From the NCBI GenBank assembly GCA_948144175.1, contig CANXME010002064.1:62001-126000 (forward strand): DNA of 64,000 bases, read 5' to 3'. The DNA is from Closterium sp. NIES-65 (taxonomy: Eukaryota > Streptophyta > Zygnematophyceae > Desmidiales > Closteriaceae). The translations under genes were made by a program, and so were the position numbers. Positions 31,326-59,068 of the stretch are shown here, piece after piece. Within the stretch, counting starts at the first letter, position 1. Every line of letters starts with the position of its first letter. Under the pieces are notes generated by a model. That model had not been told where the DNA came from and did no database searches. It saw only the letters and a list, made by a program, of their open reading frames with translations.

Positions 31326-31488
31326 ATGAATCGCTTCCGCATCTGTCGCCGCAGATTGCGTGTTCACGCAGGGGCCACGAGCCTTCACTGTGTCGCGAAA
31401 TTCCGACGGGTTACGTTTCTCCTCTATTTCGTAGCCTTTGTTCGTGTCGCTCGCGGTCTCGTCGACTGCTATAACCTAACGAATCCAA
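31326..31488 (+). CDS. exon 1: putative signal segment
   Basis: Encodes about 54 residues. A basic start is followed by VTFLLYFVAFVRVA, a hydrophobic stretch fitting a signal peptide or anchor, then NLTNPS with a possible N-glycosylation site. The exon ends at CCAA|GTAAGAG, phase 1, which matches the acceptor at 31880. The basic n-region is long, so the true start could be elsewhere. Confidence 0.5.
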
Positions 31489-32803
31489 GTAAGAGGCTCC
31501 GCTTCTCCCGTTCTCGGTATCACCGCCAATTAAGGTTTCGTCTCTATCATGCTAAGTACTTGTCGAGTCGTAAGCACGCCTTTAATAGAGACGAGCCACT
31601 ATGTAGCAGCCGTCCTTCTCCAGGCGTAGTTATAATTCCACATTTTACTCGTTCCTTTTGCCTCCACCCCCTTCTTCCTCCTCGCAATATAAGCCACTTT
31701 TCGGTCGTTTGCCGGTGTGCATTCCGTTCCGCTCCTCCCGATTATTCGTTCGTGCGTAGATGTTGCCGCAACGATCAGCTGAGCTGGCAAAGCTGTATCT
31801 CTAGAAGTTTCGTTTCTATCCGCTGAGCCCTGTAAATCTCCAAATATTTCATTATACCCCCACTTCTTTGGCCGTCACAGGTGAATCTTTGAATTTCCTC
31901 TCGAACCCAAGCTTCGATACAAGCTGTCTCGATACAGGATGGCGTCGCAAGAAGCTGAACGCGTCATGCGATCCGTGGCCATATTTATTCCCGTGGCGCG
32001 CGCTGGAACCTGGGGAATCGTTTTTCAGCGACGAGGTCTTCGCCACCGCAACTGGCGGCGGAAACCGCGGAACAATGCGCGCGCCAGCGGGTGCGACACT
32101 GGTAGAAGCGGTCGCGACAGCAGGAGGGGCGGCGGCGTCGCCTGCTGACATGTCAATTAAGAACGGGGTCACGGGAGTCACGGACACCCTACTGGCAGCC
32201 GACGGGTCCCGCTTTTTACCGCTGACTTCCGCTTTTTCCGCGTCGCCTAGTAGCAACGACACTTCTGATGGTAGCAATAGCAGTAGTAATGATAGTACTA
32301 GTAGCAGCGCGTTTGGCGGCCCAGGCGTGGCGCAAGCGCTGTGCGAACTCAAACCCGCGGCGCCGACCAGCAACGAGTCGCAGCAGGCGCAGCAGCAGCA
32401 GTCCCCGCGCCAGCTGTCGCTCTCGTTCTTTGCGCGCGCCAGCCTGTGCGCGGAGGGGGAGGGGGCCGGGGAAGGGGAGGCAGTGCGGCTGTTGAAGGTG
32501 CTGCTGCTGGTAGTTCCGCTGAACGCTTCTGCCGCAGCAGCAGGGGGAGGGGGAGCAGCTGGAGGAGAGGCGGGGGAGCAGGTGTGGGGGGAGTGGCGGG
32601 TGGGTGTGCCGTGTGGGGCGAGCAGTGCGAGTTTGTCCGGCGCCTTGCCTTGGTTCCAAGTGGGACCCCTCCTCTTCCCCCTCCCTGACCCCCCGAAATC
32701 CCCCTCCTCTTCTTCCTCCTCCGCCTCTTCCCCTTCCTCGTTGGTTGTGCCTCCCGGGGGAGTGGCGCTGCATTTGGTGATTCGAGGTGTGCAAGACAGC
32801 AGT

Positions 32804-32834
<31 letters not shown>

Positions 32835-35800
32835 CTGCCACCGTCGCCACCTCCAGCCGTACTGCCGACGCCACTAGCAGCGTATTTGCCAGCAGCAGCA
32901 GTGACAGTGGTAGCATCGGCGCCAGCAGCACCAGCACAACCAGCAGCAGCAGCGGCGGCGGCAGCGGCGGCGGCGGCAGCAGCAGCAGCAGCAGCAGCAG
33001 CAGGGCCGTTGTTGACAGCAGGGGGGGCAGCGGCTTCACCATTTCCTCCTCCATGGGCCTCCTAATCCGATCCGCACTACACCCCCACCTTACCCGCGCT
33101 GCATCCGCCCTGGAAAGGCTTCTCCGCTTCCCCACGCTACCCTTCCCCTCACTCAGGCGGGTCTGGGGGCCACAACAGTTCCGGAGCTCTGGGCTGAAGA
33201 GAGCAGCAGATGCAGGGGCAGCAGCAGCAGTAGCAGCAGCAGCGGCGGCAGCAGCAGCAGCGCCCGCAGTGCAAGCAGCTGGTGCGGAGACTGTATCTCA
33301 CAATGCGGCAGCGGAGGAGGGGGTGGGGGAATCACGGGTTGCAGCAGCGCGGACAGTGCAAGCAGCTAGTTTCGTAGCCCACGCTGCGGCAGCGGCAGCG
33401 GAGGGTGTGGGAACAAGACCGGGAGCAGCCGAATTCGCTGTTGCTGCGAGTACGGGAGGGGGAGCAGGAGCGGGAGCGAAGGTGGGGGTGAAGAGAGAGG
33501 GAGTGGCTTCGGAAGCGGGGACCACTGCTATCGACCTTGCGTCTGTCATGCCCACTCGCAGTGAGTGAGAGAGGAACAGGTGGATGCAGGACGGGCGAGG
33601 TGGGGAGGGATAGAGCCCCAGGTGAGTGAGAGGGGGGGGTAGGTGCAGACAGACGGTTGGTGAGACGGTGCGGACGGGCGGATGGCCCAGTTGAGTGAGT
33701 GGGTGTGGCGTTGGAAGTGGGGCGGGGACCACTGCTATCGACCTTGCGTCTGTCATGCCCACTCGCAGTGAAGCAGAAAGTCAGGAATGGTTGACAGGGT
33801 AACTGGAGTGGCACAGGCACGATGGTAGAATGCATGCGTTGCGCTGCGCATTGACATCGTTTGTTTATCGATCAACATCGTTTGTTTATCGATCAACATT
33901 GTTTGTTGCACACATGATGCTCAACGTCCAAGTTTCAACCTCCGACTCATGTGCTCTGTTCATCGATCCCTGATTTCACGGCTGCGCCCACTCTTCCTCC
34001 CCCTTCCACTCCCCATCACTGCCGCCGCCCTGCAGCCGACCCCTTCCCTCTCAAGTACTTCTCCCACTCCCTCCCGCCCCCCCCTCCCCTCCTTCCCCTC
34101 CCCCACGCCTTCCCCACTTCCCTGCCCTGCAGCCGACCCCTCCCCTCTCAAGTCCTTCTCCCACTGGCCGCTCTCCAGTGCCCACCCGCTCCTCACAGCC
34201 GGCTCAACCCGTCGCAACCGCTCCTCCCTCTCCCTCACCACGCTCTCCGACCTCAACGCTGCCGCCCTGGCGCTGCACCCCACCCCCTTCGCCCTGCTCG
34301 CCCCCGCCACGCCCTCCTCCCCCTGCCGCCCCTTCTCCTTCTCCACCTCCTTCACCTTCCGCATCTCCTCCCCCAATGCCGCCGGGCTGGGCGGCGAGGG
34401 CTTGGCGTTTGTGATGCTGCCGACGCCCACTCTTGGCTTGCCGGGGCCCTCCCTGGGGTACGGCCGACTGCTGCTGCCCCCGGGGAGCACGACTGGTGCT
34501 GATGACTCACAGGTACGCGCATCTCATCAGCACCAGCAGTGTTCCATTTCAGGTACGTGTCATCTCAGGTACGTGTCATATCAGGTACGTGTCATTTCAG
34601 GTACGTGTCATCTCAGGTACGTGCCATCTCAGGTCCATGTCATCTCAAGTACATGTCATCTCAGGAACGTGTCATCTCAGGAACATGTCATCTCAGGTAC
34701 GTGTCATCTCAGGTACGTGTCATATCCGGTACGTGTCATCTCGGATACATGTCATCTCAGATACATGTCAAATCAGGTACGTGTCATATCAGGTACGTGT
34801 CGTCTCAGGTACATCTCATCTCAGGTACGTGTCATCTCAGGTACGTGTCATCTCAGGTACAGTTCCTTTGCGTTCCGCATCCGCACACCCAATGGGGCGG
34901 GGCGGGGATCTTAGTTGGAATATACGCGTTTCGCGTTTCATACGCTAGCGTTTATCCGCTAGCGTATAAACGCTGAACGCTTCTTGGGAGGCTTCCTGTA
35001 CGCAGTGAATACGCAGGGCCGGGCACCTAAAATTTTTTCCCGGGCAGTTGTTAGGTCTTTAGCGGGGGATGGGCGAGGTGCAAAGCACGAAGTTGGTGCC
35101 CGCAGTCTAGTCATACTCGTTGAGAAGTATGAAGTCGGCGAGATCGAGATGAAACGAAATGTAGAAATGTCGAGATTAGGGCTGACTGGCTGGTAAGCAG
35201 CGTGGGGTTTGTTGGGGGGGTGGTTCTGGACAGGTTGGAGTTCGTAGATGTTATGGGTTCCAGTGCGGTACTAATATGAGATTCAACATTTCGATTCCCA
35301 GACATGCCTCCCAACTTCGAAGTCACATTTCCGCTTGCCTAGACCACCGATTAGCATTTCGACTTTCGCGAAATGCTCACGAAGAAATTCCGCACCTATT
35401 CCGCGATTTTTTTTTTTCGAGCAGCCCTAAAACTTTTCTGACTGCGTATTGCGTATTCCCTAGCGTTTTGCGTATAGCGTTAAAACGCAAGCGTATAAAC
35501 GCGATACGCTTGAGGCTCTGAGCGTATACTCCAACTTAGGCGGGGATAGGCAGCAATGGGATGGCGTTTGTTGTGGATTTGCTGTTCGTCTTTCCGCTTC
35601 GTCGTCCCTGTTTATTGTCTGCTGGTCTTACTCTTCCTGCCTTGCTCTCCTGCTCTCCTGCTCTCCTGCTCTCCTTGCTCTCCTTGCTCTCCTGCTCTCC
35701 TTGCTCTCCTGCTCTCCTGCTCTCCTTGCTCTCCTTGCTCTCCTGCTCTCCTTGCTCTCCTTGCTCTCCTGCTCTCCTTGCTCTCCTTGCTCTCCTGCTC

Positions 35801-38800
35801 TCCTTGCTCTCCTTGCTCTCCTGCTCTCCTTGCTCTCCTTGCTCTCCTGCTCTCCTTGCTCTCCTGCTCTTCTGCCCACTACCCTGCTCCCCCTCCTGCT
35901 TCCCCCACACACAGCTACAGCAGCAGCGGAGCCTGGCAGTGGAGTTTGACACGGCCTCTTCCCCCGAGTTTTGGGACCGCCCCGACCACCACGTGGGGGT
36001 GAACCTGCACGGCAGCATGCTCTCTCTCGCCTCTGCTCCCGTGCACCCCCTCGGCATTCCGTCCCTCAACGCCGGCCAGACCCTCCTCGCCACCATCCAC
36101 TACAACGCCTCCTCCTCCCTCCTCACCGTCTGGCTCTCCCCTGCCCCCTCCTCCTCCCCTCCCCTCCCCACCCCTCGCTCCTCCTGTCGCTTTCCTTGCT
36201 TCCCTGGTTTCCCCCGGTTCTCTCGCTCTCCCTCCCCCTCCTCCTCCTCCTTTCGTTCCTCTTCCTCCTCCTCCCCCTCCGCCCCCCCTCTCCCGCGCTC
36301 GGCCGTGCTGAGCACATTCCTGGACACGTGCGAGTGGCTGGGGGGGAACGACCCGGAGGCGGCAGCGCCCCCCCCACCGCTGTTTGTGGGATTCACAGCG
36401 GCCACGGGCAAGGGGGCGGAGCAGGCTCAGGCACATGAGGTGCTGGGGTGGACGTTCCAAGTGGGGGAGGGTGAGTTGCTTGGTGACCTTAAGTGGTGCT
36501 GGGGTGGACGTTCCAAGTGGGGGAGGGTGAGTGGAGTGTCTTTAACCTGCTACTCACACCGCTCAATCACATAACCACAATCAGTTTTTGAGGCTTCTAG
36601 TTTTGAGGCGCCTGATATTTTGAGACGACTTTTGAGGCGCCTCGAATGCACTGTTCCTCAAGATTTCGTTGGTTCTGTATATTCAAGGCGGCTCAGAAAT
36701 TGCCTGTGCTGAACCGACCATAGTATTTCCCTTCCATCCCCTCGGTTCCTTCACCATCACACTTCCAGTGTTCATCTTCCAGTGTTCCTTGATATGAAGA
36801 GGAGGCGTGAAGCTCATGGAATCTGCCTATCATGGCCCATAGTCCACACCCTACCTAGGATTAAAGCTCCTTGGCGTGATTTCCTCCGAAACCCCCACAC
36901 CCCCCACCTTTTTCACCCCCCCTCCACCCACCCACCCCACTCTCCCCATCCCCCCCTTCCTCTGTATCATGCCACTCCATCAGCGGAGGATCCGCTTCTG
37001 TTTTGGGCGGCAGACTCGTTCTCCTTCCCCTACATCACGCCAGCCACTCCCCTGCTGACACATGGCAGCACACGGAAGCGTTTCTTCGCTGCCGACCTCT
37101 CCGTCGCTGCTGACGTGGCATCCACCAGCCAATCAAACGAACCCGCACCTGGAGCCCTCTTCTTCCCCCGCCGTCTCCCTCTCCTCTACTCCTCCTCCTC
37201 CCCTCCCTTCCCTCCTCCTCCCTTTGCTCGTCCTCGCAGCTCCCCCCGTTCCTCTCCTTCCTCCTCCTCCCCACCTTCCCAAACTACAGCCACCGAGCCT
37301 CCTGTCTGCAAGGCTCGCTCCTTCACCTTCACATACGGCTTTTCCATGAATACATCCGCTTCCCATGGGCTCGCGTTCGTTATAAGCACTCATGCGACCG
37401 TAGGTCAAGGTGGGGCTTATATGGGGTACGGCCGGGACCCATCCTCGCGACTCGCTAATGGCAGCTGGCCGGACGGCGCGCGGAGTGTAGCTGTGGAATG
37501 GGACACTGTAGCAAACCCAGAAATGGGCGATGTAAATAGTATACATGTTGGCGTTAACACTGATTTTAACATGACCTCGATTTTCGCAAAGAAAGTGGTT
37601 TATCCGATGGAGCCGGATGACGTGTGGCAGATGAGGGTTGACTATAACGGGAGCAGCAAGGAGATGCTGATTCGGTGGTACAAACCCCCTGTTGTGAAGG
37701 GCAGCACGAGGCTCAGTTTTGACCTGTGTGCTGCTCTGACCAATGTGACACAGACCACTCAAAGCAGCAGTGGCAGCGGCAGCGGCAGCAACAGCAGTAG
37801 CAGCGGCAGCAGCAGCCCCACGGACCTATGGTCGCCATCCTTTGGGCAGCTGGTCGTTGGGTTCACCAGCGCTGCTCTCCCTCCCCCCCCTGGCCGCATG
37901 CCTTCCCCCGTTGCCCTCTCCTCCTGGACCTTCCGATTCACAGGTAGGAGGGGGGGGGGGGGGGGGTGGTGAGGGGGAAGAGTGGGAGGGGGGAGGCATA
38001 GCAAGCCACGAGCCCTGCCCCCGTCGCCCTCGCCTCCACGACTGGAAAGGGGAGAGAAAAGAGGAAGGTAAATATATATATACATATATTTATACATATA
38101 TATATGTATATATATATACATATGTATATTCCAGCCCCCGCTTTATCCCCTTGCTTCTCACTTGACCCCCTCGCTTCTCACTTGACCCCCTCGCTTCTCA
38201 CTTTATCCCCTCGCTTCCCCGCACACCCGCCCTCACCCCCCTTGATAGACACTGACTTCTGCAACCACTCTCCCGTGCTCCCCTGCGGCATGGGCACATG
38301 CTCTAAGGCGCGGTCCCCATGGGACGCCTCTGTCCTGCTGCCCTCCTGCAAGTGCGCCTTGAAGCTCCCCTCCTTCGAGCCCACTCACCTCACTGGCCTG
38401 CCCTCCTGCTTCCCTGGTGAGACATGGAGTGCAAGAGGTGAGGTGTGGAGTGCGTGTGGTAGGCAAATGGTGGAGTGCGGTAGGCAAGTGGCCCTCACGT
38501 CCCCCACTCACCTCACTGGCCTGCCCTCCTGCTTCCCTGGTCAGTCCTGCCTTGTGAAACTGAAGGGTGTGTTCTTTTTTTGTGTTGTTTTGTTCTTTGT
38601 ATTGTTTTGTTCTTTGTATTGTGCTTCCTTTGCCTTCCTGGAATGTCAGCCCATTGTTCCCATCATGTCTACTCCGCTCCTACATCCCCCACTGCTGAGG
38701 TGGATGAGACTTACCCAATCCCCTTCCATTGTATCTCCCCAACCCTCTGCCCCTCCCTCGCTCTCTTCCTCCTCCCCCTCCCTCTTGCTCTTTCCTCCCC

Positions 38801-41800
38801 CTCCTCCCCCATCCTCTCTTTTCTACTCTCCCTCTCCCCACCCCGCCTTCCCCCCTTCCCCTCACCAGAGGCCTACTCGTGTCGTCAGCTCTCCAGCAAC
38901 CCATGCGCCCCGGGGTGTGCATCGACAGTGTGCCGATGTGCTGCTCACTCACTCACTCCTCTCTCCCCTCTCTGCCCCCCCCCCCCCCCCCCCCCCCCCC
39001 ATTCTCTTTCCCCTCCCCCCACGTCCCCTCACCAGAGGCCTACACGTGTTGCCAGCTCTACAGCAACCCATGCGCCCCAGGAGTGTGTATAGATGATGTG
39101 GATGGCTCCTACTCCTGCCTCTGCCCCTCGCCCTACTTCCCCTTCGCCTTTTCTCCCAAGGGCACTGCCAGTTGCTCCCTGGGTAAGTAATATACCTTGT
39201 GTTGATTTCTTGCTTACAACCCTTTATTTCCTGAGGGGAGAGAGAAGTGTGGTTTCATTAGCAGTAGGAGAATGCATGACAAGTTCAATTCAGCTAATGC
39301 AAACTGGCTAAGCAGGCCAACAAAGTCAGGGGTTTGGAAAGAGAAGGGGCACACTGCTAAGTTGAAGCGCATGGCATGTGAGGCTGACACATTTTGCAAC
39401 GCAGCCCATGTAGCCTCCCACGCACATCTTTGACGCGCCTAAAAAAACGCCTAAGTTGAAGCGCATGGCATGTGAGGCTGGCACATTTTGCAATGCAGCC
39501 CATGTAGCCTCCCACGCACATCTTTGACGCGCCTAAAAAAACGCCTAAGTTGAAGCGCATGGCATGTGAGGCTGGCACATTTTGCAATGCAGCCCATGTA
39601 GCCTCCCACGCACATCTTTGAGGCGCCTAAAAAAACGCCTTAGTTGAAGGGCATGGCATGTGGGGCTGACATCTTTTGCACCACAACCCGTGTAGCCTCC
39701 CACACACATCCTCCCATCACGCCACTTGCCTAGGAAGGTGTTTTCCGCCCGAATGCCACGGGCAGGCTCCGTTCTGGGCTTAAACGCAAAAACCCTGATC
39801 TTGCCCCAACTATGTGACCATAAGAGGGTACCAACGACGGACCGACTACCTCTTTACAACTTCTGTAACACTTTATTTGCTTTTGAGGTTCTTCCCCCCC
39901 TTTCCCTCCCCCTCCCCCCCCCCTCCCTTTCCCCAACATGTCTACAGTTCAAGCGGGTGGCACTCGAATGCCAACCTTCCTGTCCCAGTTTGGTCTCACA
40001 TGCCCCCTAATACTAAACACTTTCGGTTTGACACAGACCCAGTTTTTTAGTGAAAACAAGGTGAGGAAGGCGATCTCACATTGCATGTCACATATTACAT
40101 ATCGCATCACAACACATCACGGCACAGCATGGGACAGCACAGCACAGCGCCGTTTTTACGGTACCGTTTTTTATGGTAAATTTCCAAAAATACGTTCTCT
40201 TTTTTTTTTTACCCTGCTCTCAACTGCCCATGCCCTGATACCATGCTCTGATACCATTCTCTGATACCATGCTCTGATACCAGGGCTTCCAATGTCGAGC
40301 TCCCATTCCTGCCGACACCCTGGTCAACGTCACCAGTCGTGCTTTCTCCAAATGTACAGCAATGTACACTGTTAATTATGTAAGTGGCATTGCAATCACA
40401 GAAATGTACAGCAATGTACACTGTTAATCATGTAAGTGACATTGCAATCACAGAAATGTACAGCAATGTACACTGTTAATTAAGTAAGTGGCATTGTAAT
40501 CACAGAAATGTACAGCAATGTACTGTTAATTATGTAGGTGGCATTTTTTAATGTAACTGGCGTCGGATTTTGTAAGCGGCATTGGATTATACGAAGGTGG
40601 CATTGTGTTATGTAAGTGGAATTGCAACTAGGCTAACCACCGGTATGGATCGATCCGGCTCGTCTTGAACCGGTCCGCTGTTTGGTAATTTGCTTATGCA
40701 TAGCATGTGACCTGCATTTAAGCTGCATGCCCCCTCCTCCGTCTCCCAATGCCCATGCAGCACCAGGCGGTGCAGTGCAGTGCAGTGCAAGCCAGTCGAT
40801 GAGCATTTAACCAGTAGAGTATTGATCGACTCATTCTGGCTTGCGTCGATCAAGTAGAAAGAACCGAGTCGAGCTTGTTCTCGACTCGTTTTCCCATGCC
40901 TAGTGCAGGTCTGTTGACCAGACCACATGTGCTACCACTCACTCTCCCTTTACAGGTGATTCTCACTCCACCCGCCCCGTCAATCCCATCTTATCCGTTC
41001 GCTCCTGGCCAAATCCTTACCTCACCTCACCTCACCTCACCTCACCTCACCTCACCTCACCTCACCTCGCGTCACCTCACCTCACCTCGCCTCACCTCAT
41101 CGCTCCCCCCGTGTGCGTGTGAAACCAGGGCGACACCTGTGACTCCATCAACGCGCTCTTCGCCACGCAGATAGAACCGTGCAACCCCATTCTCCCATTA
41201 TCCTCGCTCTCACTTCCACTTCTCCCTGTATCTGACACGTGTGCCTGCAGGGCGACACCTGTGACTCCATCAACGCGCTCTTCAACACGCAGATAGAGCC
41301 GCTCAACCCCGCGCTCAGCTGCTCCGATGGGCCGAGGCACGGGCAGGTGAGATCACTTTTGAGTAGGTGAGATCACTTTTGAGTAGGTCAGATCACTTTT
41401 GAGTAGGTGAGATCACTTTTGAGCAGGTGAGATCACTTTTGAGTAGGTGAGATCACTTTTGAGTAGGTGAGATCACTTTTGAGTAGGTGAGATCACTTTT
41501 GAGTAGGTGAGATCACTTTTGAGTAGGTGAGATCACTTTTGAGTAGGTGAGATCACTTTTGAGTAGGTGAGATCACTTTTGAGTAGGTGAGATCACTTTT
41601 GAGTAGGTGAGATCACTTTTGAGTAGGTGAGATCACTTTTGAGTAGGTGAGATCACTTTTGAGTAGGTGAGATCACTTTTGAGTAGGTGAGATCACTTTT
41701 GAGTAGGTGAGATCACTTTTGAGTAGGTGAGATCACTTTTGAGTAGGTGAGATCACTTTTGAGTAGGTGAGATCACTTTTGAGTAGGTGAGATCACTTTT

Positions 41801-43673
41801 GAGTAGGTGAGATCACTTTTGAGTAGGTGAGATCACTTTTGAGTAGGTGAGATCACTTTTGAGTAGGTGAGATCAGTGGGTTGAAGGAACTTTAGAAGGT
41901 CACAAGTGCAGCATGGGGTTGTGGTCACAAGTGCAGCATGGGGTTGTGGTCACAAGTGCAGCATGGGGTTGTGGTCACAAGTGCAGCATGGGGTTGTGGT
42001 TACAAGTGCAGCATGGGGTTGTGGTTACAAGTGCAGCATGGGGTTGTGGTCACAAGTGCAACATGCACACCAATGTACACCAATGTACACCAATGTACAC
42101 CAATGTACAGCAATGTACAGCAATGTACACCAATGTACACCAATGTACACCACCAATGTACACCAATGTACACCAATGTACACCAATGTACACCAATGTA
42201 CAGCAATGTACACCACCAATGTACACCAATGTACAGCAATGTACACCACCAATGTACACCAATGTACACCACCAATGTACACCAATGTACACCAATCTAC
42301 AGCAATTTACCCCAATACACCACCCCTGTTCGGACAACTACCATCTCTTTCCTCTCCCCCCTTTCCTCCCCTCCCCACAGTTACTCTGCGTGGCGTTTGA
42401 CCAAGAGTGGTACGACCAAGGAAACACTAACGTAAAGTGCAACCACTACGCACGCATCACTCCAGCCACACCCTCCAGCAGCCTGCAGCAGACAGCCCCA
42501 TACACAGTCGAGAGCGTGCTCATAAGCGAGCTTGAGAGCGCACAGACCTGCCAGGGGCTGTGGCAGGCCTTCAGCCTCGCCTCTCCCGCACGCTTCTTCC
42601 AGCTCAACCCCGGCCTTCCGTGCGACTCGCTGCTGCCTGACAGCCCGCTTCAAGGGAACTTTGTGACTGAGGTGAGTGCGAAGAGTGGACCAGGGTGTGT
42701 GGGAGTGACTTGTGAGTTGGTGTAACGAGGTGACTTTTGAGTCGACTCAAGTCACCCCTCCCACGCGCTTCTTTCAGCTGAACCCCGCCTTTCCGTGCGA
42801 CTCGCTGCTGCCCGACAGCCCGCTGCAGGGCAACACTGTGACTCAGGTGGGTGGGAAGCTGTTACCAGGTGGGTGGGAGTGATCTTTGAGGCCTAAAAAA
42901 TCACTTCTGTGTGATTCTCTGCTGCCAGACAGCCCCCTGCAGGGCAACACTGTGGCTCAGGTGGGTGGGAAGACTGTTACCAGGTAGGTGGGAAAGCTGT
43001 TACCAGGTGTATGGGGCCAGGTGTATGGGGCCAGGTGTATGGAATTGAACCTAGGCTTCCTCTAAATTTCCTTTCTGCACTGCAGTAGGAAGAGTGTGGA
43101 TATGACTGCGAGGTAAGTGCGTGGCAGTGTGCAGTGGTGTGTGAGTGGTTGTATGAGTGAAAGGGATTGAATATGAGCATCACGGAAACCTCGCAGCCAG
43201 AATGGTGCGAGTGTGGGGGATATTGGGGCTTCGCTTTCGATGATGCCAGGGGCCAGGGTAAGTGGTAGAGCTGGGGAGTGGAAGGGTGTGAGTGCGATGA
43301 TCCAGGTCGAATCTCTTTTCTCCTGTGACAAGGTCAAGAAGGCTGTTGCTGGCAGTAGCGTGAAGTTTTGAGATGCCACGAGTGGTCGAAAGCTAGCTTC
43401 ATATTTGATGCTTCCTTTTTAGTTTGTCTCACGCAAACCCTGTTTTCACGGAAACACAATTGGCAGGTTTGTGTGGCCGGCTTTGACTCTCGTCCTCTCT
43501 CAGGCGTGCCCTGTTCAACCAAGAGATTGTACAGTGTGAAGCGTGGCGATACGTGCGGCATGCTGGTCACTAAGAAATACAGCCGCAGCATTGAATTGTT
43601 TAGAAACCTTAATAACGGTTATGATTGTGCAGTGAGTAGATTTTGGACTGGCATGTTGCTTTGTTTGCCTTGA
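31326..43673 (+). CDS. 12-exon gene: L-type lectin x2, EGF-like x2, LysM x4 extracellular protein
   Basis: Exons proposed: 31326-31488, 31881-33560, 34133-34512, 35915-36470, 36984-37943, 38249-38416, 39036-39182, 39948-40060, 40284-40379, 41251-41346, 42381-42671, 43467-43673. All introns are GT-AG and the phases chain without conflict (phase 1 or 0), giving 1618 aa. Order: hydrophobic N-terminal segment (about residues 29-45), a Ser/Ala-rich region with beta-rich segments (55-614), two legume-lectin-type domains (615-926 and 927-1246), two Cys-rich EGF-like exons (1247-1351), and four LysM-type units (1352-1618). I see no transmembrane helix or kinase, so a secreted or wall-associated glycan binder is inferred. 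LysM binds N-acetylglucosamine polymers and L-type lectins bind sugars in known proteins. The start Met and exon 2 borders are the least certain parts. Confidence 0.75.
31881..33560 (+). CDS. exon 2: Cys/Trp-containing N-terminal region with Ser and Ala runs
   Basis: A 560-residue exon after acceptor GCCGTCACAG. It begins ESLNFLSNPSFDTSCLDTGW, like the NPSF...GW opening of plant galactose-binding jelly-roll (DUF642-like) domains, which I offer only as a possibility. A segment LSLSFFARASLC ... WGEWRVGVPC ... VALHLVIRGV looks like beta strands. Long Ser runs (AGC repeats, about 32790-33005) and Ala runs (GCA repeats, about 33210-33265) follow. It ends at CTCGCA|GTGAGT, phase 1. Low complexity limits confidence in the second half. 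Confidence 0.65.
33519..33771 (+). repeat. duplicated end of exon 2 with its splice donor
   Basis: The last 40 or so bases of exon 2 including the donor (GGACCACTGCTATCGACC ... CACTCGCAGTGA) occur at 33519-33564 and again at about 33726-33771, roughly 207 bases downstream in intron 2. The second copy has GTGAAG in place of GTGAGT. Confidence 0.88.
33853..33905. repeat. short tandem repeat, about 24-bp unit
   Basis: ACATCGTTTGTTTATCGATC is repeated twice and followed by a partial third copy in intron 2. Confidence 0.8.
34133..36470 (+). CDS. exons 3 and 4: first L-type lectin domain
   Basis: Exon 3 (34133-34512) has the front strands (FSFSTSFTFRI, GGEGLAFVMLP, LGYGRLLLP). Exon 4 (35915-36470) has SLAVEFDT, a WDRPDHHVGVNLHGS metal-loop equivalent, and the closing VGFTAATG ... 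EVLGWTFQ. These are the standard landmarks of legume lectins. The metal-binding Glu, Asp and His are present. The sugar-binding Asp that usually precedes GLAF is Glu here, and the usual Asn of the metal loop is not obvious. The intron (34513-35914) holds a donor-anchored repeat, a TIR element and a pyrimidine-rich array. The acceptor of exon 4 could be 35914, 35920 or 35923, all in frame. Confidence 0.82.
34513..34862 (+). repeat. 15-16 bp tandem array starting at the exon 3 donor
   Basis: About 20 units of the type GTACGTGTCATCTCAG start within 40 bases of the exon 3 donor (CACAG|GTACGCGCATCTC). Nearly every unit boundary reads CAG|GTACGT, so it is both acceptor-like and donor-like. Confidence 0.9.
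34911..35538. mobile_element. TIR element in intron 3 (MULE-like, non-autonomous)
   Basis: The 628-bp segment is flanked on both sides by the 9-bp direct repeat GGCGGGGAT (34901-34909 and 35539-35547); one extra C stands at 34910. Ends are TTAGTTGGAATATACGC and the reverse complement of TAAGTTGGAGTATACGC. Both subterminal regions are rich in ATACGC/AAACGC words. A 9-bp duplication is typical of Mutator-like elements. No transposase frame is present. Confidence 0.65.
35641..35875. repeat. pyrimidine minisatellite upstream of exon 4
   Basis: Units of CTCCTGCTCTCCTTG and shorter variants run for about 235 bases and end about 40 bases before the exon 4 acceptor, forming a very long polypyrimidine tract on the coding strand. 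Confidence 0.9.
36439..36533 (+). repeat. duplicated end of exon 4 with its donor
   Basis: GGTGCTGGGGTGGACGTTCC through AAGTGGGGGAGGGTGAGT occurs at about 36439 and again 56 bases later. Both copies carry the donor GG|GTGAGT. Confidence 0.9.
36984..37943 (+). CDS. exon 5: second L-type lectin domain
   Basis: A single 320-residue exon covers the whole domain: PLLTHGSTRKRFFAADL aligns with domain 1, then SFTFTYGFSMN, SHGLAFVISTH, GAYMGYGR, SVAVEWDT, NPEMGDVNSIHVGVN, MRVDYNGSSKEMLIRW, and VVGFTSA ... LSSWTFRFT. The metal-binding Glu, Asp, Asn, Asp and His are all in place. The residue before GLAF is His, not Asp, so the classical sugar site is changed. Several NXS/T sites suggest secretion. The exon starts and ends in phase 1, as domain 1 does, which fits domain duplication; domain 2 lacks the internal intron. 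Confidence 0.85.
38069..38129. repeat. AT/ACAT microsatellite
   Basis: ATATATAC-type simple sequence in intron 5. Confidence 0.85.
38249..38416 (+). CDS. exon 6: EGF-like Cys-rich module
   Basis: A 56-residue phase 1-1 exon after acceptor CCTTGATAG: DTDFCNHSPVLPCGMGTC, then CKC and a final Cys in SCFPG. The spacing suits a calcium-type EGF module, although the fold is not certain. The donor is CCCTG|GTGAGA. The last part of the exon is repeated about 123 bases downstream. Confidence 0.65.
38381..38541 (+). repeat. duplicated end of exon 6
   Basis: CCACTCACCTCACTGGCCTG to CTTCCCTGGT occurs at 38381 and 38504. The second copy reads GGTCAG, losing the consensus donor. Confidence 0.88.
38869..38930 (+). 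pseudogene. decayed upstream copy of EGF exon 7
   Basis: After an acceptor CTCACCAG the sequence matches exon 7 (AGGCCTACTCGTGTCGTCAG and on to AACCCATGCGCCCC), then loses one base (CCCCGGGGTGTG against CCCCAGGAGTGTG), which throws the EGF frame out. Offset to exon 7 is 167 bases. Confidence 0.75.
39036..39182 (+). CDS. exon 7: EGF-like module
   Basis: A phase 1-1 exon: EAYTCCQLYSNPCAPGVC, then IDDVDGSYSCLCPSPYF and a last Cys in SCSLG. The pattern C-x-x-NPC-x-x-GVC-x(n)-GSYSCxC is typical of plant EGF repeats. Donor GTAAGT at 39183. A decayed upstream copy starts at 38869. Confidence 0.8.
39361..39715. repeat. 94-bp tandem repeat, four copies
   Basis: Units start GTTGAAGCGCATGGCATGTG and end with GCGCCTAAAAAAACGCC, at about 39361, 39455, 39549 and 39643, in intron 7. 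The last copy is the most diverged. Confidence 0.9.
39948..40379 (+). CDS. exons 8 and 9: first LysM and start of the second
   Basis: Exon 8 (39948-40060) follows a long pyrimidine tract and encodes LTCPLILNTFGLTQTQFF and SENK. Exon 9 (40284-40379) gives GFQCRAPIPADTLVNV, completing a LysM with the expected TC, FGLT, N and Cys landmarks. It then opens the next unit with KCTAMYTVNY before the donor GTAAGT. Phase 0 joins both exons. The last 30 bases of exon 9 with its donor are repeated three more times at a 52-base period. Confidence 0.75.
40237..40283 (+). repeat. CTGATACCATGCT repeat abutting the exon 9 acceptor
   Basis: Four copies of CTGATACCATGCT-like text run directly into the acceptor CTGATACCAG|GG of exon 9, so the acceptor region itself has been duplicated. 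Confidence 0.8.
40350..40540 (+). repeat. 52-bp repeat of the exon 9 end with its donor, four copies
   Basis: AAATGTACAGCAATGTACAC then TGTTAATTATGTAAGTGG starts at 40350 (exon 9), 40402, 40454 and 40506. Each unit has an acceptor-like AATCACAG at its left and a GTAAGT-type donor (GTAGGT in the last), so each could act as a micro-exon. Confidence 0.92.
41011..41099. repeat. CTCAC pentamer array
   Basis: CTCACCTCAC repeats, close to perfect, lie about 30 bases before the partial copy of exon 10. Confidence 0.88.
41129..41200 (+). pseudogene. partial upstream copy of LysM exon 10
   Basis: After acceptor GTGAAACCAG the text repeats exon 10 (GGCGACACCTGTGACTCC on to AACCCCATTCTC), then diverges before any donor. 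Offset 122 bases. It cannot be spliced as a full exon. Confidence 0.75.
41251..41346 (+). CDS. exon 10: second LysM core
   Basis: A phase-0 exon of 32 codons after acceptor GTGCCTGCAG: GDTCDSINALFNTQIEPLNP, then ALSCSDGPRHGQ. With exon 9 (YTVNY) and exon 11 (LLCVAFD) it makes a full LysM, with the GDTC start and a C-V ending. Donor GGGCAG|GTGAGA opens the 20-base minisatellite. A partial copy lies upstream at 41129. Confidence 0.82.
41347..41876 (+). repeat. 20-bp minisatellite starting at the exon 10 donor, about 26 copies
   Basis: GTGAGATCACTTTTGAGTAG is repeated with almost no variation from the first base of intron 10. Every junction reads TAG|GTGAGA. Confidence 0.96.
41899..42060. repeat. 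25-bp minisatellite, about 6.5 copies
   Basis: GTCACAAGTGCAGCATGGGG followed by TTGTG, tandem, directly after the 20-bp array in intron 10. Confidence 0.93.
42061..42312. repeat. 10-bp minisatellite ACCAATGTAC, about 24 copies
   Basis: Tandem CAATGTACAC and CAATGTACAG units in intron 10. The same words make up the end of exon 9 (40350-40370). Confidence 0.93.
42381..42671 (+). CDS. exon 11: third LysM
   Basis: A 97-codon phase-0 exon after CTCCCCACAG. It finishes LysM 2 (LLCVAFD), has a Pro/Ser linker, then YTVESVLISELESAQTC, FSLASPARFFQLNPGLPC and a closing strand FVTE, continued by VCVAGF in exon 12. The YTV...QTC...LNPGLPC order is LysM-like, with an insertion between YTV and TC. Two partial copies of its end follow in the intron. 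Confidence 0.78.
42759..42960 (+). repeat. two partial copies of the exon 11 end with donors
   Basis: Copy 1 (about 42759-42847) has an acceptor-like TTCTTTCAG and keeps an open frame (LNPAFPCDSLLPDSPLQGN) up to CAG|GTGGGT. Copy 2 (about 42902-42960) is shorter and also ends CAG|GTGGGT. Confidence 0.85.
43467..43673 (+). CDS. exon 12: fourth LysM and stop
   Basis: After acceptor CAATTGGCAG it reads VCVAGFD, then LYSVKRGDTCGMLVTKKYSR and LFRNLNNGYDC, a clear LysM core, and ends at TGA 43671-43673. The unit lacks the usual closing strand. A donor-like GCA|GTGAGT at 43631 is in phase 0, so an extra exon is possible, but an AATAAA follows 62 bases past the stop, which favours this as the last exon. 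Confidence 0.68.
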   Translation, partial: VCVAGFDSRPLSGVPCSTKRLYSVKRGDTCGMLVTKKYSRSIELFRNLNNGYDCAVSRFWTGMLLCLP

Positions 43674-45049: not shown

Positions 45050-45422
45050 TGTGAGGATCTGGGATCGAGCTCAGAAAAGATGATTCAAATTGAATTGAAT
45101 GATCACCTGGGTACAACACGAGGCTATATATAGGCTCGACAGAAGGCCTCGTAACCAGGTGTTACGCGAAGGTTCCGCGGGTCGCGAAGCGTCCCGAACA
45201 GATCCTTACCGAATTCGGTAGAAGGCAATTCGGTGGCAACCGAAAAGCCAGAATTCGGTGCACGCAACCTAGCTCGGTGCTATAACTATAATAAAATATA
45301 GGAAAACACCTAGCCTAGGAAATCAAGCAATTCATGCATGCATATGATTATCCTATGCTAGAAATAGCATGATAAAGTAGAGGCAAGCAAGCATAGCTGG
45401 CATAAGCCGTCGTACTCTCACA
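45050..45422 (-). repeat. 3' LTR of gypsy G2
   Basis: On the minus strand it begins TGTGAGAGTACGACGG after the purine run GGGGGGGACG and ends GATCCTCACA at 45050. Confidence 0.92.
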
Positions 45423-45432
45423 CGTCCCCCCC

Positions 45433-48400
45433 TCAAAGCTGGGTGGCGTGAGATACACCCTGCTTGACAAGATAGTCCTTGAGAGCACGGCGTGCGTTGC
45501 CCATATCAGCTTCTGCAACCCAACTGTCCTCAGTGGGGTCGTATCCCTTCCAGCGTATCAGGAACTCGAGGGTCTTGCCACCGCGGTGCCGATGGGTGAG
45601 AACGCGCTCGATCTCGTACTCGGGTTCATCCTGTATGAGAACAGGTGGTGGTGGCGGTAGTTGCCGTCCCTGGAACTGTTGGTTGGGGTCCTTGTAGGGC
45701 TTTAGTAGCTGGACATGGAAATCGTTGTGAAGCTTCCATGTATCTGGTAAGCGCAAGCGGAATGTAACTGGTGTCACCTGTGCCTCAACGAGAAAATGAC
45801 CACAGAAGCGAGGCCGGAGTTTGGATGGGAGGTGAGACAGGTTCAAGTTGCGCGTGTCAAGAAGCACCTGATCTCCGACTGCTACAGAGTGATCACGTCG
45901 CTGACGATCGGCATACTGCTTCTGGGAGTTCTGCATCGTGGTGAGACGTCGCTGAGTCTTCTCCCATAGCTGCCGCATGGTGGTGACGAAGTCATGTGCG
46001 GCTTGGACGTATGCCGGTGTGGTTGGCTGCTGTGGTGTGAGTGGTTCCCGTCCGTAACACAGGAAGAAAGGAGTTTTTCCTGTGGCCGCATGTGATGCGT
46101 TGTTGTAAGCGAACTCTAGGGTTGGTAACGGTGTGTCCCAGTGGCTGACGTCGTCCTTGCAAGCTGTGCGCAGTAACTGTTCAACCACTTGATTGAGTCG
46201 CTCTGTCTGTCCGTCAGTCTGGGGGTGGTATGCTGAAGACATTGTAAGGTTTGTCCCCAACAGTCCCATGAGCTCCTTCCAGAACTTACTCGTGAATTTG
46301 GGGTCTCTGTCTGAGATGAGTGTAGCGGGGATGCCGTGGATGGTGATGATGCGGTCGAAGAAGAGTCGAGCAGTTGCTTCAGCTGTAGCTGTGGCGTTGG
46401 TCGGTATGAAGTGACCCATTTTGGAGAACTTATCGATCACCACGAGGATGGAATCATGTCCCCGTGAGGTCGAAGGAAGTGCTGTGATGAAGTCGAGGCT
46501 AACGACCTGCCATGGCTGCTCCGGTACGGGTAGAGGCTGAAGTAACCCTGCTTTTTTGTGCTTGCTGCTCTTCATCCGCTGGCACGTGTCGCATGAGGTG
46601 ACGAACTGCTGCACGTCTGCTGCCATCCCGGGCCAGTAGTAATACTTCGCTATCCCTGCTAATGTCTTGTTGCTCCCGAAATGTCCCGCATAAGGTACGT
46701 CGTGAAACTCCTCCAATAGGATCTGCCGTAGCGGGGCGTAATTCGGTACCCAAATCTTTCCTGAACCCTTCCTTACAGCTAAGTCTTTCTCCCACTGTAA
46801 TAGCTTCTTGGTCTGTGCTGTAGCAATCTCTGCGTCCACGGAGTACCCATGTTGGAATAGACCCTTGAGCAGAGGGTTCATCCCGTCAAGCTGGATGCTT
46901 GCTACATGTCCGGGGCGGCTCAACGCGTCTGCCGTGTTGTGTAGCCCGGGCTTGTAGACGATGTCGTAGTGGAAGTGAGTTTCCACGGAGTCCACCCACC
47001 GCACCTGTCGTCGTGAGAGTGTCGGCTGTGACTTCAGGTATTTGAGACTGCAGTGATCGGTTTAGACTGTAGTCTTGGCTCCCTCTAGGTAACACCTCCA
47101 CGCCTTGAAGGCTATGACTATCGCTAAGGCTTCCTTGTCGTGAATGGGGTAGTTTAGTTCTGCTCCGTGTAGCTTCTTACTGAGGTAGGCGATGGGCTGC
47201 AAACCGCGTCCGTGATCCTGCATCAGTACTGCTCCGACTGCTTGGTCACTAGCGTCTGCTTCCACCACGTAGTCCTTGTCTGGATCCGGCAAGATGAGTA
47301 CTGGCGCTGTAGTCAGTGCTATCTGTAGCTGCTCCATGGCTTGCTGATGAAGGGTATCCCATTTGTAGGGCGTATCCTTTTTCAGTAGGTCGGTTAGGGG
47401 CGCTGCTATCTTAGCGTACTGCGGCACGGACCTGTTGTAGTAGTTGGCGAAGCCTAGGAACTGCTGTAACTCCTTCACGTTCTCTGGTACTTTCCACTTC
47501 TTGACGGCTTCGATCTTCCGTGGGTCCACGTGTACGCCCTCGGCACTCACCATGTGCCCGAGAAACTGCACCTTCTTCAGGGCGAAGTCGCTCTTTGACA
47601 GCTTCACGTAGAACTTGTTTTTCCGCAGGATCTCGAACACCTTCCGCAGATGCTCCACGTGCTCCTTCATGTTCTTGGAGTAGATGAGAATGTCGTCCAG
47701 GTACACCACCACGCACTCGTCCAGCAGGGGTCGTAAGATGTGATTCATCTTCGCCTGAAACGTTGCTGGTGCGTTGCAGAGTCCGAACGGCATCACCAAG
47801 TATTCGTAGGAGCCGTATCTGGTACGGAACGCTGTCTTGTGGACGGAGTTGTCTGCCATCTTGATCTGCCAGTACCTCGATCGTAGGTCCAGCTTCGAAA
47901 ATACTGTTGCTCCACGCAGTTGATCGAGTAGGTCCTCTATGCGCGGTATGGGATATTTGTTTTTGACTGTCTGTTTGTTCAGTGCGCGGTAGTCCATGCA
48001 CATCCGTAAACTACCGTCTGGCTTTGGAGTGAAGAGAACTGGTGCGCCGTAGGGAGAGGTGGATGGGCGGATCAGTTGTGTGTCCAGTAGATACTCTATC
48101 TGTTTTGTCATTTCTGTCAGTTCAGTTGGACTCAGTCGGTATGGTGCACGTGAGACGGGTTTCGCACCTGGTTCCTCCACGATCTCGTGCTCGTGGGTGC
48201 GTGCTGGAGATACGCCTGTGGGTAGGTCGTCGGGCATTATATCCTTGTACTGCTCCAAGACCTCCTCCTCTGCTGCTGCTATAACCAGTGCTAAGTAACC
48301 CGTGTTACTCTCGTTCACTGTCCGTTCGAACCGTGCCAGTGTCGTTTCAGGAACGCTCCGTGTATCCGTCAAGCTTCGCAGCTCCACTCGTTTCCCGTTG

Positions 48401-48612
48401 TTGTAGATGCACACCTTGCTGTTGACCCAATCGATCTCGGGGTTGAACTGCTTCAGGAAATCTCGCCCCAAGATAAAATCTAATCCCTTGATGTTCGTGA
48501 TCGGCAATGTCGGCTTCCACCTCAACGCCCCTATCTGCAGCTGCAGTGTTGACTTTCCGTGGATGGGAAGGTTCGTACCGTCCACCATCGTTGCTGTAAA
48601 CTGGGTTTCTTC
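45433..48612 (-). pseudogene. pol: gypsy G2 Pol: RT, RNase H, integrase, chromodomain
   Basis: Minus strand, one frame with only single stops. After the protease stop (TAA at about 48613) come the rest of protease, RT ([16 protein letters not shown] near 47700), RNase H ([14 protein letters not shown]), a TAA at about 47061 where G1 has Tyr, then integrase with the zinc region and Asp-Asp-Glu core, and a C-terminal chromodomain (FLIRWKGYDPTEDSW), ending 45433. Compared with G1 it has no frameshift. Gly-to-Arg in LRSRYW departs from the usual LRSGYW of RT. Confidence 0.9.
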
Positions 48613-49977
48613 TTAGGATTCTCCAATTTTCTCCAACGTCCCGCGGTCGCACACCGAGTGGGACGCACCACTATCCACCAGGGCCTGGAGGCGACGCCCG
48701 TTGCAGATCACCTCGAGTACTAGTGGTTGCTGCTGCTCCGAGTATCCGTAGATGGTATCGCTTATAGGATCGTAGGGTACGTCGAATATGTTATCCCTAG
48801 GTCCTGCGCTCAAAGATGCAGCTTCAGTATCAGTTTTCAACTGAGAAAGGTTAGAAGGATTTATCCGAGGCCGATTCGCCTTCTCTTGGGCCTGGAACCT
48901 TCCACTAAGCCTTTGCAGCTGTGTAGGCTTCATCTGTGGGGAACAGGGAGCCTTGAAACAGTGCTGCTGGGAGAGAATATTAACTCCTCGGAATGCTCGA
49001 CCCGTATTAGCGCTTTTGAGTAGGGTCCCCATAATACCCGGTACCGGTTTAATTTCTGACTCTCCCTTAATAAAGGCTTGAAACCCACGAGAAGTAATAT
49101 TCTTACTTGTCGGGGTATACGGCTGGAGTTTCCCGGTCGGTGCAGGGTCTTGTTTCGCGGATCCTCCATTAGTCTCGGCGATTTCCCCTGGTGCCGGCTG
49201 GTCGTGACGTTTTAAATTTGCGCCACCATATTCTCCTTTTTTCGCCCTCTCCGAAGTTGCCACGTTGTCCGTTTTCTGCTTCGGTGGTGCCTCACTGTTC
49301 TTGTCCTTCAGCTCCGCACACCTTCTCTTCATTTTCCAACACGCCAAGATACGATGTCCTGTAGCGCCGCAAAATTTGCACGTCTCATTATTTGCTAGCC
49401 GCTGCTCCACATCGCCCTCGTCGTTCTCCATTGGGTCGGCAGTCGTGGGTGGTGCCAATCGCCCCATGCCACTAGTTGGCTTGTTGCGTCGTGTTCCATA
49501 GTAGCTACTGTTCAACGTGTCGAACTGTTCGATCAGTGCTGCCGGAAACTGCGCCCACGTCCCCTCGCCTTGGACTATTCTGTTGTTGATCCACTCTAGA
49601 GCTGGGCCTCGTAACAGTGTTGCTGCGAGCCGTATGCGCATTGCGTCTTTTGTCGGGGTCGTGCATCTAACGGCTTCGAAGTAAATTTCGAGTTCAGCTA
49701 CAAATCGACGAACGTCGTTCCTTTTTACTGTAGGATCGAACGCCTCCGGTAGCCTCAGCTTCACTGCTTTGAGGTTAACTGTAGCTGCTGCCGTTGTCGC
49801 ATGTAGAATTGTCGGTGTAGCCGCTGCTGCTGCTGCTACTGTTGTCGCTGCTGCTGTGGCGGTTGCCGACTGGTTCGCAAGGAGTTTTTCGAGTCGTGGG
49901 AGCGCTGCACGTATTTGCTTATGCTCAGCACGTAACTCGGCGATTTTCTGTACTGAAATATCTCCTTTTCCCTCCAT
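48613..49977 (-). pseudogene. gag: gypsy G2 Gag-protease in one frame (Gag shortened)
   Basis: The minus-strand ATG at 49977 opens MEGKGDISVQKIAELRAEHK. It has the capsid start (EIYFEAVRC, LRGPALEWI), then jumps from the helix after LIEQF to a short segment and the knuckle CKFCGATGHRILAC. Against G1 about 85 residues of the capsid C-terminal part are missing. The frame continues without a shift into protease ([12 protein letters not shown]) and stops at TAA 48613-48615. It shows that Gag and protease can be one frame in this family. Confidence 0.88.
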
Positions 49978-50127
49978 TTGGCGATTTACAGGAAGATGCG
50001 CGACGAAAATAATCGAATTCTAGGTGCTGGTCGACTTACTGCGAGTCAATTTGACTGTAGAATCGACGAGCGCGAATTCTGTAGGTTGCGTAAATCTCCC
50101 TTAGGCGAAATTCGCGTCTGATCTTGG

Positions 50128-50264
50128 TGTCAGAACATATCTATAGCTTATACTATTGTGTAGGCTGTAGTGGGGTATCCCATAGGGGGTACAACCCAGT
50201 TAGGGTTTCATATTTGTACTGCCTTCATTCATAGTCCACACATTCCTGTTCTAAAATTCTCACA
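50128..50264 (+). repeat. 5' LTR of copia E
   Basis: Starts TGTCAGAACATATCTATAGC and ends AATTCTCACA. It differs from the 3' LTR at about two positions (CTGTAGTGG/CTGTGGTGG and CTAAAATT/CTACAATT). Confidence 0.93.
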
Positions 50265-51210
50265 TGGTATAGAGCGGGTTCCCTGTGGGAACTTCGCCTA
50301 GGGCCCACCGAAGCGCGCCCCGAGGCGCGCTAACTTTTTTTTTCCTCCCCCTCGAGCGACCCTCCGTGTCGCCCTTCCCTCGCGGCCCTGCCGCCCCTTC
50401 GGACGCGGCCCCGCCGCCATTTCGATCGCGGCCCCGCCGCCTACTCAGACGCGGCCCCGCCTCCTGCTCAGCCGCGGCCCCGCCGCCCGTTACGACGCGG
50501 CCCCGCCGCCCGCTACGACGCGGCCCCGCCGCCCGCTACGACGCGGCCCCGCGGCCTGCTCAGCCGCGGCCCCGCCGCCTGCTCAGACGCGGCCCCGCCG
50601 CCCGCTACGACGCGGCTCCGCCGCCTGCTCAGACGCGGCCCCGCCGCCCGCTCAGTCGCGGCCCCGCCGCCTGCTCAACCGCGGCCTCGCCGCCCGCTAC
50701 GACGCGGCCCCGCCGCCTGCTCAGCCGCGGCCCCCCCCGCCCGCTCAGACGCGGCCCCGCCGTCCCTTTCTGACGGCCACGCCGTCCTCTTCTGACGGCC
50801 CTGCAGCCGCGCCTGACAGCCCCGCCGTCCCCTCTACCGGCTCCGGCGCTGCACCCGACGGCCCCGCCGTCCCCTCTGCCGGCCCCGCCGCTGCTTCAAC
50901 CGGCCCCGCCGCTACCCCTACCGGCCCCGCTGCTGCACCTGTCGGCCCCGCCGCCCCAGCAGCCGAGCCGCAGTAGCAGCCGAGCCGCCCCAGTAGCCGA
51001 GCCGCCCCTGCAGCCGAGCCGCCCCAACAGCCGAGCCGCCCCCAGCAGCCGTGCCGCCCGAGCCGCCCGAGCCGCCCGAGCCGCCGAGTCGCCCGAGCCG
51101 CCCAGCAGCCGCGCCGCCGAGCCGCCCGAGCCGCCCGAGCCCTCCCTGCACTGCCCTGTCTGGTGAGCACTGAGCTTTACTCTGCGCACTGCCCTCTCTC
51201 TACTGCTGTC
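50265..51210 (+). promoter_or_regulatory. copia E leader: hairpin and GC-rich tandem repeats
   Basis: A perfect hairpin at 50313-50330 (arms GCGCGCC and GGCGCGC, loop CCGA) is followed by tandem CGACGCGGCCCCGCCGCCCG-type units (about 50390-50760) and GAGCCGCCC units (about 50990-51140). Layout is the same as in copia B although the repeat words differ. Confidence 0.65.
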
Positions 51211-57135: not shown

Positions 57136-57352
57136 CTTTACTTGTACTGTGACATATATATATACCTGCTCTTGCTTGTCTAGTTTTATATATATATATA
57201 TGTCTGTACTCCTGCATGTGAACTGGCCTCTGGCCCTGCTCTTGTGCTCGGACTGTGTGGTGACTTTGTGATCCACCCCGAGCTTGCTTTGCTTTGCTTT
57301 GCTTGACTGGTCTTGTGACCCCTTGTTCTCCCCCACTTTGCCTATGGGGGTG

Positions 57353-57489
57353 TGTCAGAACATATCTATAGCTTATACTATTGTGTAGGCTGTGGTGGGG
57401 TATCCCATAGGGGGTACAACCCAGTTAGGGTTTCATATTTGTACTGCCTTCATTCATAGTCCACACATTCCTGTTCTACAATTCTCACA
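57353..57489 (+). repeat. 3' LTR of copia E
   Basis: Follows CCTATGGGGGTG and precedes the second CTTGG copy, after which the gypsy G2 leader continues to 57773. Confidence 0.93.
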
Positions 57490-57773
57490 CTTGGCCGTTG
57501 AGGAGAAAATCGATCCGACGCTCCAAATTCCAACTTTTTTGGGCGAAATTCTCTGGGCCGTTGAGATGAAACTCGATCGAACGGTCGAAACTCCAACCTT
57601 TCCACAAGTTAATCTGAGGGGTGTTCGAAAACCGAATCGAGGGGGACTTAGAAAAATTGCGCGGAACTGGTTTTACATACCCGTATCGGCGCTTTCGTCG
57701 TCGCCCCCGCGGTTTTTAAAGGCCGGAACTAAGCGGTTGAAGACCTCGCGTGTAAACCCGCTCTGATACCAAG

Positions 57774-58146: not shown

Positions 58147-58151
58147 CTGCA

Positions 58152-59060: not shown

Positions 59061-59068
59061 GCACAAGG

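Follow-up and report, generated by a model that had tools for sequence, protein, structure and literature searches.

A predicted Closterium protein family with paired legume-type lectin domains, paired EGF-like modules and a LysM tail

L-type lectin and LysM ectodomains are two main modules by which land-plant receptors sense sugars or patterns. The ectodomain of the L-type lectin receptor-like kinases is of the Lectin_legB type. LysM receptor kinases and LYM proteins (CERK1/LYM type) have three LysM units separated by CxC and a membrane or GPI anchor. In a 2024 receptor survey, L-lectin and LysM are handled as separate ectodomain classes (PMC10834447). A 2019 plant lectin survey includes Chara and Klebsormidium, with no zygnematophyte among the 14 species that it lists; it describes Chlamydomonas proteins in which LysM occurs together with a C-type lectin or a fucolectin-tachylectin-pentraxin domain (PMC6362431). 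For Lectin_legB, the 2024 Zygnema genome paper counts 26 architectures of combined domains, which are often specific to a lineage, and the word LysM has zero occurrences in its main text; a lectin-LysM architecture could figure in the supplement (PMC11096116). In the passages of the literature considered, we met no description of a protein with both Lectin_legB and LysM. The combination and the shared tail described below appear to be new; both modules and domain shuffling were already known.

The window analysed here is the whole stretch of 64,000 nucleotides from Closterium sp. NIES-65 (Zygnematophyceae), and our protein searches likewise assign it to Closterium. It contains a gene whose predicted protein has the Lectin_legB type of domain, as in the L-type lectin receptor-like kinases, and several LysM units, which are extracellular in the CERK1/LYM type. 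In contrast to the L-type lectin receptor kinases, neither a transmembrane segment nor a kinase was found. From the CERK1/LYM type the protein differs by its added lectins and EGFs and by a LysM tail that has no CxC linkers, and we found in it neither a kinase nor a membrane segment at the C-terminus. The Chlamydomonas proteins resemble it in that LysM is accompanied by another type of lectin within a single algal protein, but this lectin type is a different one, and the alga is a chlorophyte. Both main modules are present in one probably secreted protein in several strains of an algal group that is sister to the land plants, and the Closterium family is a testable case of module combination outside receptor kinases.

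Gene model and N-terminal region

The gene occupies 31326-43673 on the plus strand. Its 12 exons were joined by their splice borders, from DNA only (Table 1), and the joined reading frame of 1618 codons contains a single stop, which closes it. GT-AG borders are present in all 11 introns, and the phases match at every join. The original prediction had given exactly this start, end and number of exons, and the splice borders and consistent phases that it described were borne out at every intron.

We found an end-to-end match in CLOM_g17742, a hypothetical protein of Closterium sp. NIES-68 (P0001 in our searches); the two proteins are identical at 71.8% of 1524 aligned residues. The alignment is continuous at each of the 11 exon junctions, with a four-residue gap one residue past the junction of exons 3 and 4. 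Exons 3 and 5-12 are gapless, and the gaps amount to 6 columns in exon 1, 180 in exon 2 and 43 in exon 4. The whole domain architecture is the same; CLOM_g17742 differs from the window protein in that its exon 2 region contains a stretch rich in repeats and its lectin 1 linker is shorter. Since P0001 is itself a prediction, it supports the gene model and does not replace RNA. As drawn from the DNA, the model is that of one intact Closterium gene.

Other readings of the region were dropped. Two separate genes do not agree with open frames, joining phases and a homologue, CLOM_g17742, that spans the region as one protein. Open frames and the same end-to-end homologue also speak against a pseudogene. 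A kinase exon past 43673 was rejected as well: by eye, the long open frames there (at least 130 amino acids) resemble retroelement genes. A comparison with plasmid records for similar DNA and a scan for promoters and terminators of bacterial type behind the gene both came out empty; neither suits a gene of an algal nucleus.

Table 1. Features of the gene and of its introns (positions in the window)
Feature	Position	Strand	Content	Basis
Exon 1	31326-31488	+	Start codon, proposed signal peptide (residues 1-44), first mature residues	
Exon 2	31881-33560	+	N-terminal region: roughly the first 300 residues conserved but lacking a Pfam match, the rest of low complexity and rich in Ser/Ala	
Exon 3	34133-34512	+	First part of legume-type lectin domain 1	Pfam Lectin_legB, exons 3-4
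Exon 4	35915-36470	+	Second part of legume-type lectin domain 1; metal-loop region AVEFDTASSPEFWDRPDHHVG	
Exon 5	36984-37943	+	Legume-type lectin domain 2	Pfam Lectin_legB
Exon 6	38249-38416	+	EGF-like module 1, six Cys	Cys columns; alone without Pfam match
Exon 7	39036-39182	+	EGF-like module 2	Pfam EGF below cut-off; Cys columns kept
Exon 8	39948-40060	+	First part of LysM 1, degenerate, without GDT	Family profile
Exon 9	40284-40379	+	Rest of LysM 1, beginning of LysM 2	
Exon 10	41251-41346	+	LysM 2 core, GDTC...NPALSC	Pfam LysM
Exon 11	42381-42671	+	End of LysM 2, linker, LysM 3 (degenerate)	Family profile
Exon 12	43467-43673	+	Last residues of LysM 3, LysM 4 (GDTC), stop; C-terminus ...GMLLCLP	
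AATAAA	43735-43740	+	Possible polyadenylation signal, 61 bases past the stop	Inferred
Exon 3 donor array	34545-34860		16-base repeat with CAGGTACGTG	
Exon 4 end	36439-36476		Repeated unchanged at 36495-36532	
Exon 7 start	39012-39093		Repeated at 38846-38925	
Exon 10 donor array	41345-41875		20-base unit, 26.5 times	
Exon 11 end	42577-42716		Repeated at 42752-42890	

The hydropathy of the predicted protein peaks at residues 29-47. A cleavage site is proposed in exon 1 between A-R-G and LVDC, and such a site after the hydrophobic N-terminus is common to the window protein, P0001 and P0004 (A-x-G before LVDCYNLTNPS). Scanning 19-residue stretches for a mean hydropathy above 1.5 revealed only three: the signal region, residues 255-261 and an Ala run at 496-503. 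The stretch at 255-261 is hydrophobic and lies in the N-terminal region, so it casts a small doubt on the topology. The scan found no hydrophobic stretch above 1.5 in or after the lectins, and the Pfam-A scan of the whole predicted protein gave no match to a kinase domain. The absence of a kinase and a membrane anchor from the original prediction therefore holds. The protein stops straight after LysM4, as do P0001 (GMLLCLP) and P0013 (GMQLCLP). By these features, the predicted protein is probably secreted.

Exon 2 encodes 560 amino acids, a region absent from the original description. Its first 300 residues or so are conserved in P0001, P0004 and P0007, and more weakly in P0013. The pieces of this conserved region that were tried had no Pfam match, and NCBIfam, run on P0001, P0013 and P0029, named nothing for the N-terminal region. 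A profile of the exon 2 region had one match among PDB sequences, with an E value of 0.77, which is not credible. By its motifs the region gives us the impression of a galactose-binding or DUF642-type beta-sandwich, but we do not claim it.

Lectin domains, EGF-like modules and LysM units

On the whole predicted protein, Pfam-A Lectin_legB scored 155.5 bits at a cut-off of 26.3. When the halves were scored alone, lectin 1 (exons 3-4) reached 108.2 bits and lectin 2 (exon 5) reached 55.9 bits. Both exceed the PF00139 cut-off, which confirms the two legume-type lectin domains that had been called from visible motifs. The best PDB matches of lectin 2 were FRIL lectins (E 2.4e-6). Compared with solved lectins, lectin 1 has Glu at the loop-A Asp and Ser at the loop-C Asn, and the E, D, D and H of its metal loop are retained. 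Lectin 2 has His at the loop-A Asp, and the E/D/N/D/H row of FRIL is retained. We take the loop-A Asp, the loop-C Asn and the metal-loop Glu/Asp/Asp/His to be the classical metal and sugar residues of legume lectins; neither lectin 1 nor lectin 2 has the full set. In the homologues of the window type (see below), the loop-A residue of lectin 1 is Glu in 10 of the 11 proteins where the loop was located, and His in P0001. For lectin 2 the loop was located in just two other proteins, P0001 and P0002, and in both this residue is Gln. In a second subfamily, lectin 1 keeps the loop-A Asp in all three proteins where the pattern was found, and lectin 2 contains AVMFDA in 7 of 7 pattern-matched proteins (of 8), that is, the metal-loop Glu is changed to Met. 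Because loop residues are lost in both lectins, it is doubtful whether either domain acts as a classical lectin.

For the EGF piece, Pfam EGF (PF00008) gave 17.5 bits in module 2, below the cut-off of 21.5, and module 1 alone had no Pfam match. The six-cysteine pattern is present in each module. Among 10 family members, eleven of the 12 Cys columns of the pair hold Cys in 9 or all of them, and the remaining column in 6 to 8. The two EGF modules of the original prediction stand as a conserved cysteine pattern, but their Pfam score does not reach the cut-off. In module 2 of the window protein, Cys-Cys is found at the place of Cys-Arg in P0001, P0003 and P0004, which gives a seventh cysteine.

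Pfam LysM (PF01476) recognized one unit, LysM2 (residues 1417-1457), with 30.9 bits at a cut-off of 20.9. LysM4 alone scored 14.5 bits, under this cut-off, and LysM1 and LysM3 alone had no Pfam LysM match. In P0001 and P0004, LysM4 is the best LysM stretch, and the whole-protein LysM scores are 38.7 and 42.1 bits, respectively. We took up to 11 papain-headed relatives, not including P0015, made a family LysM profile of their units 2-4, and scored it on the units of 8 lectin-type tails (some of which lack a unit) and on 50 shuffles of each. Units 1, 2, 3 and 4 of the window protein scored 21.5, 38.5, 17.3 and 39.6 bits, and the shuffle maxima for these units were 5.4, 7.8, 4.6 and 9.8 bits (400, 300, 400 and 350 shuffles). 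The only row under the best shuffle of its unit (4.6) was unit 3 of P0021, at 3.7 bits. Single-unit profile-profile comparisons were mixed. LysM1 matched units 2, 3 and 4 of the relatives with a probability of 93.6%, 17% and 4%, and LysM3 with 73.6%, 44% and 11%. The GDT motif is missing in LysM1 and LysM3; GDTC is intact in LysM2 and LysM4. Taken together, the four LysM units first predicted are supported, and two of them are degenerate. Within exons 8-12, to which these units had been assigned, Pfam found LysM in exons 9-11. The solved LysM nearest by sequence were two chains named 'Chitinase A', both of them weak matches (5bum, E 0.0025; 4pxv, E 0.32).

The Closterium family and the shared tail

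Three protein searches yielded 16, 8 and 16 rows with 37 distinct proteins. The first one scored only the 8000 candidates sharing most words, and the length rule excludes short relatives. Closterium is named for 36 of the 37 matches listed; P0029 is a transcript-derived protein of EukProt whose organism is not shown. No relative named outside Closterium is among the matches listed, which is weak evidence of absence elsewhere, and the protein database may lack other zygnematophyte genomes.

P0001-P0012 are homologues of the window type. Eleven of these 12 match both lectins, EGFs and LysM, and P0005 is without lectin 1. Most of their models are fragmentary, and among all homologous models examined, only P0001 and P0013 are neither fragmentary nor rearranged, so the complete domain order is visible in few proteins. 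P0003 (Closterium sp. NIES-64) resembles the window protein closely, with about 96-100% identity in pieces lying within an exon and 91.8% in exon 7; pieces running past an exon or lying on an intronic copy score 62-86%. By this measure the window is NIES-64 or closely related to it. Unlike the window protein, P0003 has 902 amino acids, is without most of lectin 2 and the LysM4 end, and seemingly includes a copied exon 7 piece. P0003 and P0008, P0006 and P0010, and P0005 and P0011 are same-strain pairs of the window type; within each pair the listed length of the longest contig is equal, which suggests copies on one contig.

The second subfamily is represented by P0013, also from NIES-64. It has lectin-lectin-EGF-EGF-LysM4 in the same order as the window protein, with 35% identity over the searched region and other substitutions in the lectin loops. 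Its listed model, unlike the window protein, has no hydrophobic N-terminus. Four strains, NIES-64, NIES-65, Naga37s-1 and Yama58-4, have listed proteins of the window type as well as of the P0013 type. The window protein is homologous over its full length, and in order, to the Closterium lectin-lectin-EGF-EGF-LysM4 proteins (CLOM_g17742). Judged from these alignments, the architecture is that of a Closterium family with two subfamilies. In a tree of 14 chosen lectin domains, all 7 first lectins and all 6 second lectins lie on opposite sides, with support of 100/99 each. P0015 has just one lectin, whose branch is very long and which groups with the first lectins. The tree has a midpoint root only, 6 of its 11 inner branches are open, and the tool warns that long branches meet. 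With these reservations, the tree is most simply read as showing a tandem lectin pair that predates the split of the window type and the P0013 type.

The tail also occurs in proteins with other heads. The LRR-papain-EGF-EGF-LysM proteins (P0016, P0025, which is CLOM_g12756, and others) have a collinear LysM4 tail like the window protein. Their head consists of LRR and a C1 papain domain with an intact-looking active-site Cys, whereas the window protein has lectins, and its Pfam scan gave no match to LRR or papain. When the LysM tails of the lectin proteins (8 rows) were compared by hhalign with those of the papain-headed proteins and P0015 (12 rows), they formed one collinear block of 215 columns, with a probability of 99.9% and an E value of 1.1e-31. 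The EGF pair that precedes the LysM tail also aligns with the papain-headed proteins, in the same Cys columns. P0015 (NIES-53) contains LRR, one lectin, a papain domain and EGF-EGF-LysM. The presumed active-site motif at its residues 901-917 has Ser, and 15 other pattern-matched proteins (16 sites) have Cys, presumably the catalytic residue; the pattern did not match P0028. P0015 is probably an inactive protease that bears the shared tail.

On this comparison, the LysM4 tail looks like a module placed under different heads. Tentatively, and at somewhat less than even odds, the EGF-EGF-LysM4 tail of Closterium may be an exchangeable docking cassette that serves under no fewer than three heads, namely the lectin pair, LRR-papain, and LRR-lectin followed by a Cys-to-Ser papain. 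If this is true, the sister lineage of land plants would have a modular extracellular recognition by L-type lectin, LRR and LysM without a kinase, and the ectodomains of plant receptors would have been combined before receptor kinases or beside them. The combination that the original prediction called unusual holds as such, but it is not a one-off: it belongs to a Closterium family, and its tail is common to LRR-papain proteins.

Proposed function and the repeats of the gene

We suggest, with a probability of about one half, that the gene encodes a secreted multimodular lectin-lectin-EGF-EGF-LysM4 protein, without a kinase or an anchor, which would bridge or array extracellular glycans. The LysM tail, chiefly LysM2 and LysM4 with their intact motifs, would dock on GlcNAc-type polymers of the wall, the mucilage or attached microbes. 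The disulphide-rich EGF pair would be a rigid spacer. The lectin head would engage a second ligand, and in this way the protein would bridge or array the glycans. Secretion, every ligand and the bridging role are what we infer here. Since lectin loop residues are missing and two LysM units are without GDT, the proposal that the protein holds several sugar-binding module types stays at the level of conjecture. CRISPR knockouts and stable nuclear transformation are reported for the Closterium psl complex, so that localisation and knockout of the gene look practical.

The replaced loop residues bear on another explanation, in which the LysM tail is the sole carbohydrate anchor, the lectin folds are beta-sandwiches for protein or hydrophobic ligands, and the whole protein is a scaffold. 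Loss of sugar binding in the lectin folds has been proposed for many L-type lectin receptor kinases. Replacement of the loop-A Asp in lectins 1 and 2, Ser for the loop-C Asn in lectin 1 of the window, and the second subfamily's AVMFDA in lectin 2, with Met at the place of the metal-loop Glu, are all consistent with a scaffold. However, lectin 2 of the window retains the FRIL row, lectin 1 of the second subfamily retains the loop-A Asp (3 of 3 found), and both lectin domains score above the Pfam cut-off; we consider a scaffold rather unlikely. The nearest LysM by sequence, those of chitinase chains, weakly favor a soluble sensor or trap of microbes in the mucilage, with LysM on chytrid or bacterial chitin or peptidoglycan and lectins on surface glycans, which would give protection without a kinase. 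Relatives with LRR and papain heads on the shared tail and the several proteins per strain (at least four each in Naga37s-1 and NIES-65) point in the same direction. The architecture alone, however, cannot separate binding of self from that of non-self, and a microbe trap seems to us less probable again than a scaffold.

A role in mating, with the protein secreted with the mucilage or at the conjugation papilla and binding glycans of the gamete surface, is very improbable. Concanavalin A is a legume lectin, and the evidence from added ConA points to mannose/glucose glycans. Yet it speaks for these glycans and not for an endogenous lectin, and the gene has no tie to mating. It is hardly conceivable that the model is an artefact of neighboring genes joined by eye, or a decayed pseudogene. 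The copies of exon ends with splice sites in 5 of the 11 introns, and the donor-based repeats in two more, could mislead gene models. Against this, the frames are open and the phases match throughout, each of the 12 exons is matched in a homologue that was predicted from another strain, and the lectin pair occurs in both subfamilies. A bridging protein is the reading that we prefer.

The introns with copies of a flanking exon end, including the splice site, are introns 2, 4, 6, 9 and 11. In introns 3 and 10, the repeat arrays are built on the donor site; the features of all seven introns lie within 33492-42890. In this gene, the only one examined in this respect, duplicated splice junctions may have enlarged the introns. 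Four of the 12 homologues of the window type (P0002, P0005, P0006 and P0011) also have doubled pieces, at differing places, in their predicted proteins, so the copying of exon ends may be a recurrent event in the genus or a source of annotation errors. The gene is flanked, at 1-29000 and 45400-60400, by long frames on both strands, which by eye resemble copia- and gypsy-type retroelements.
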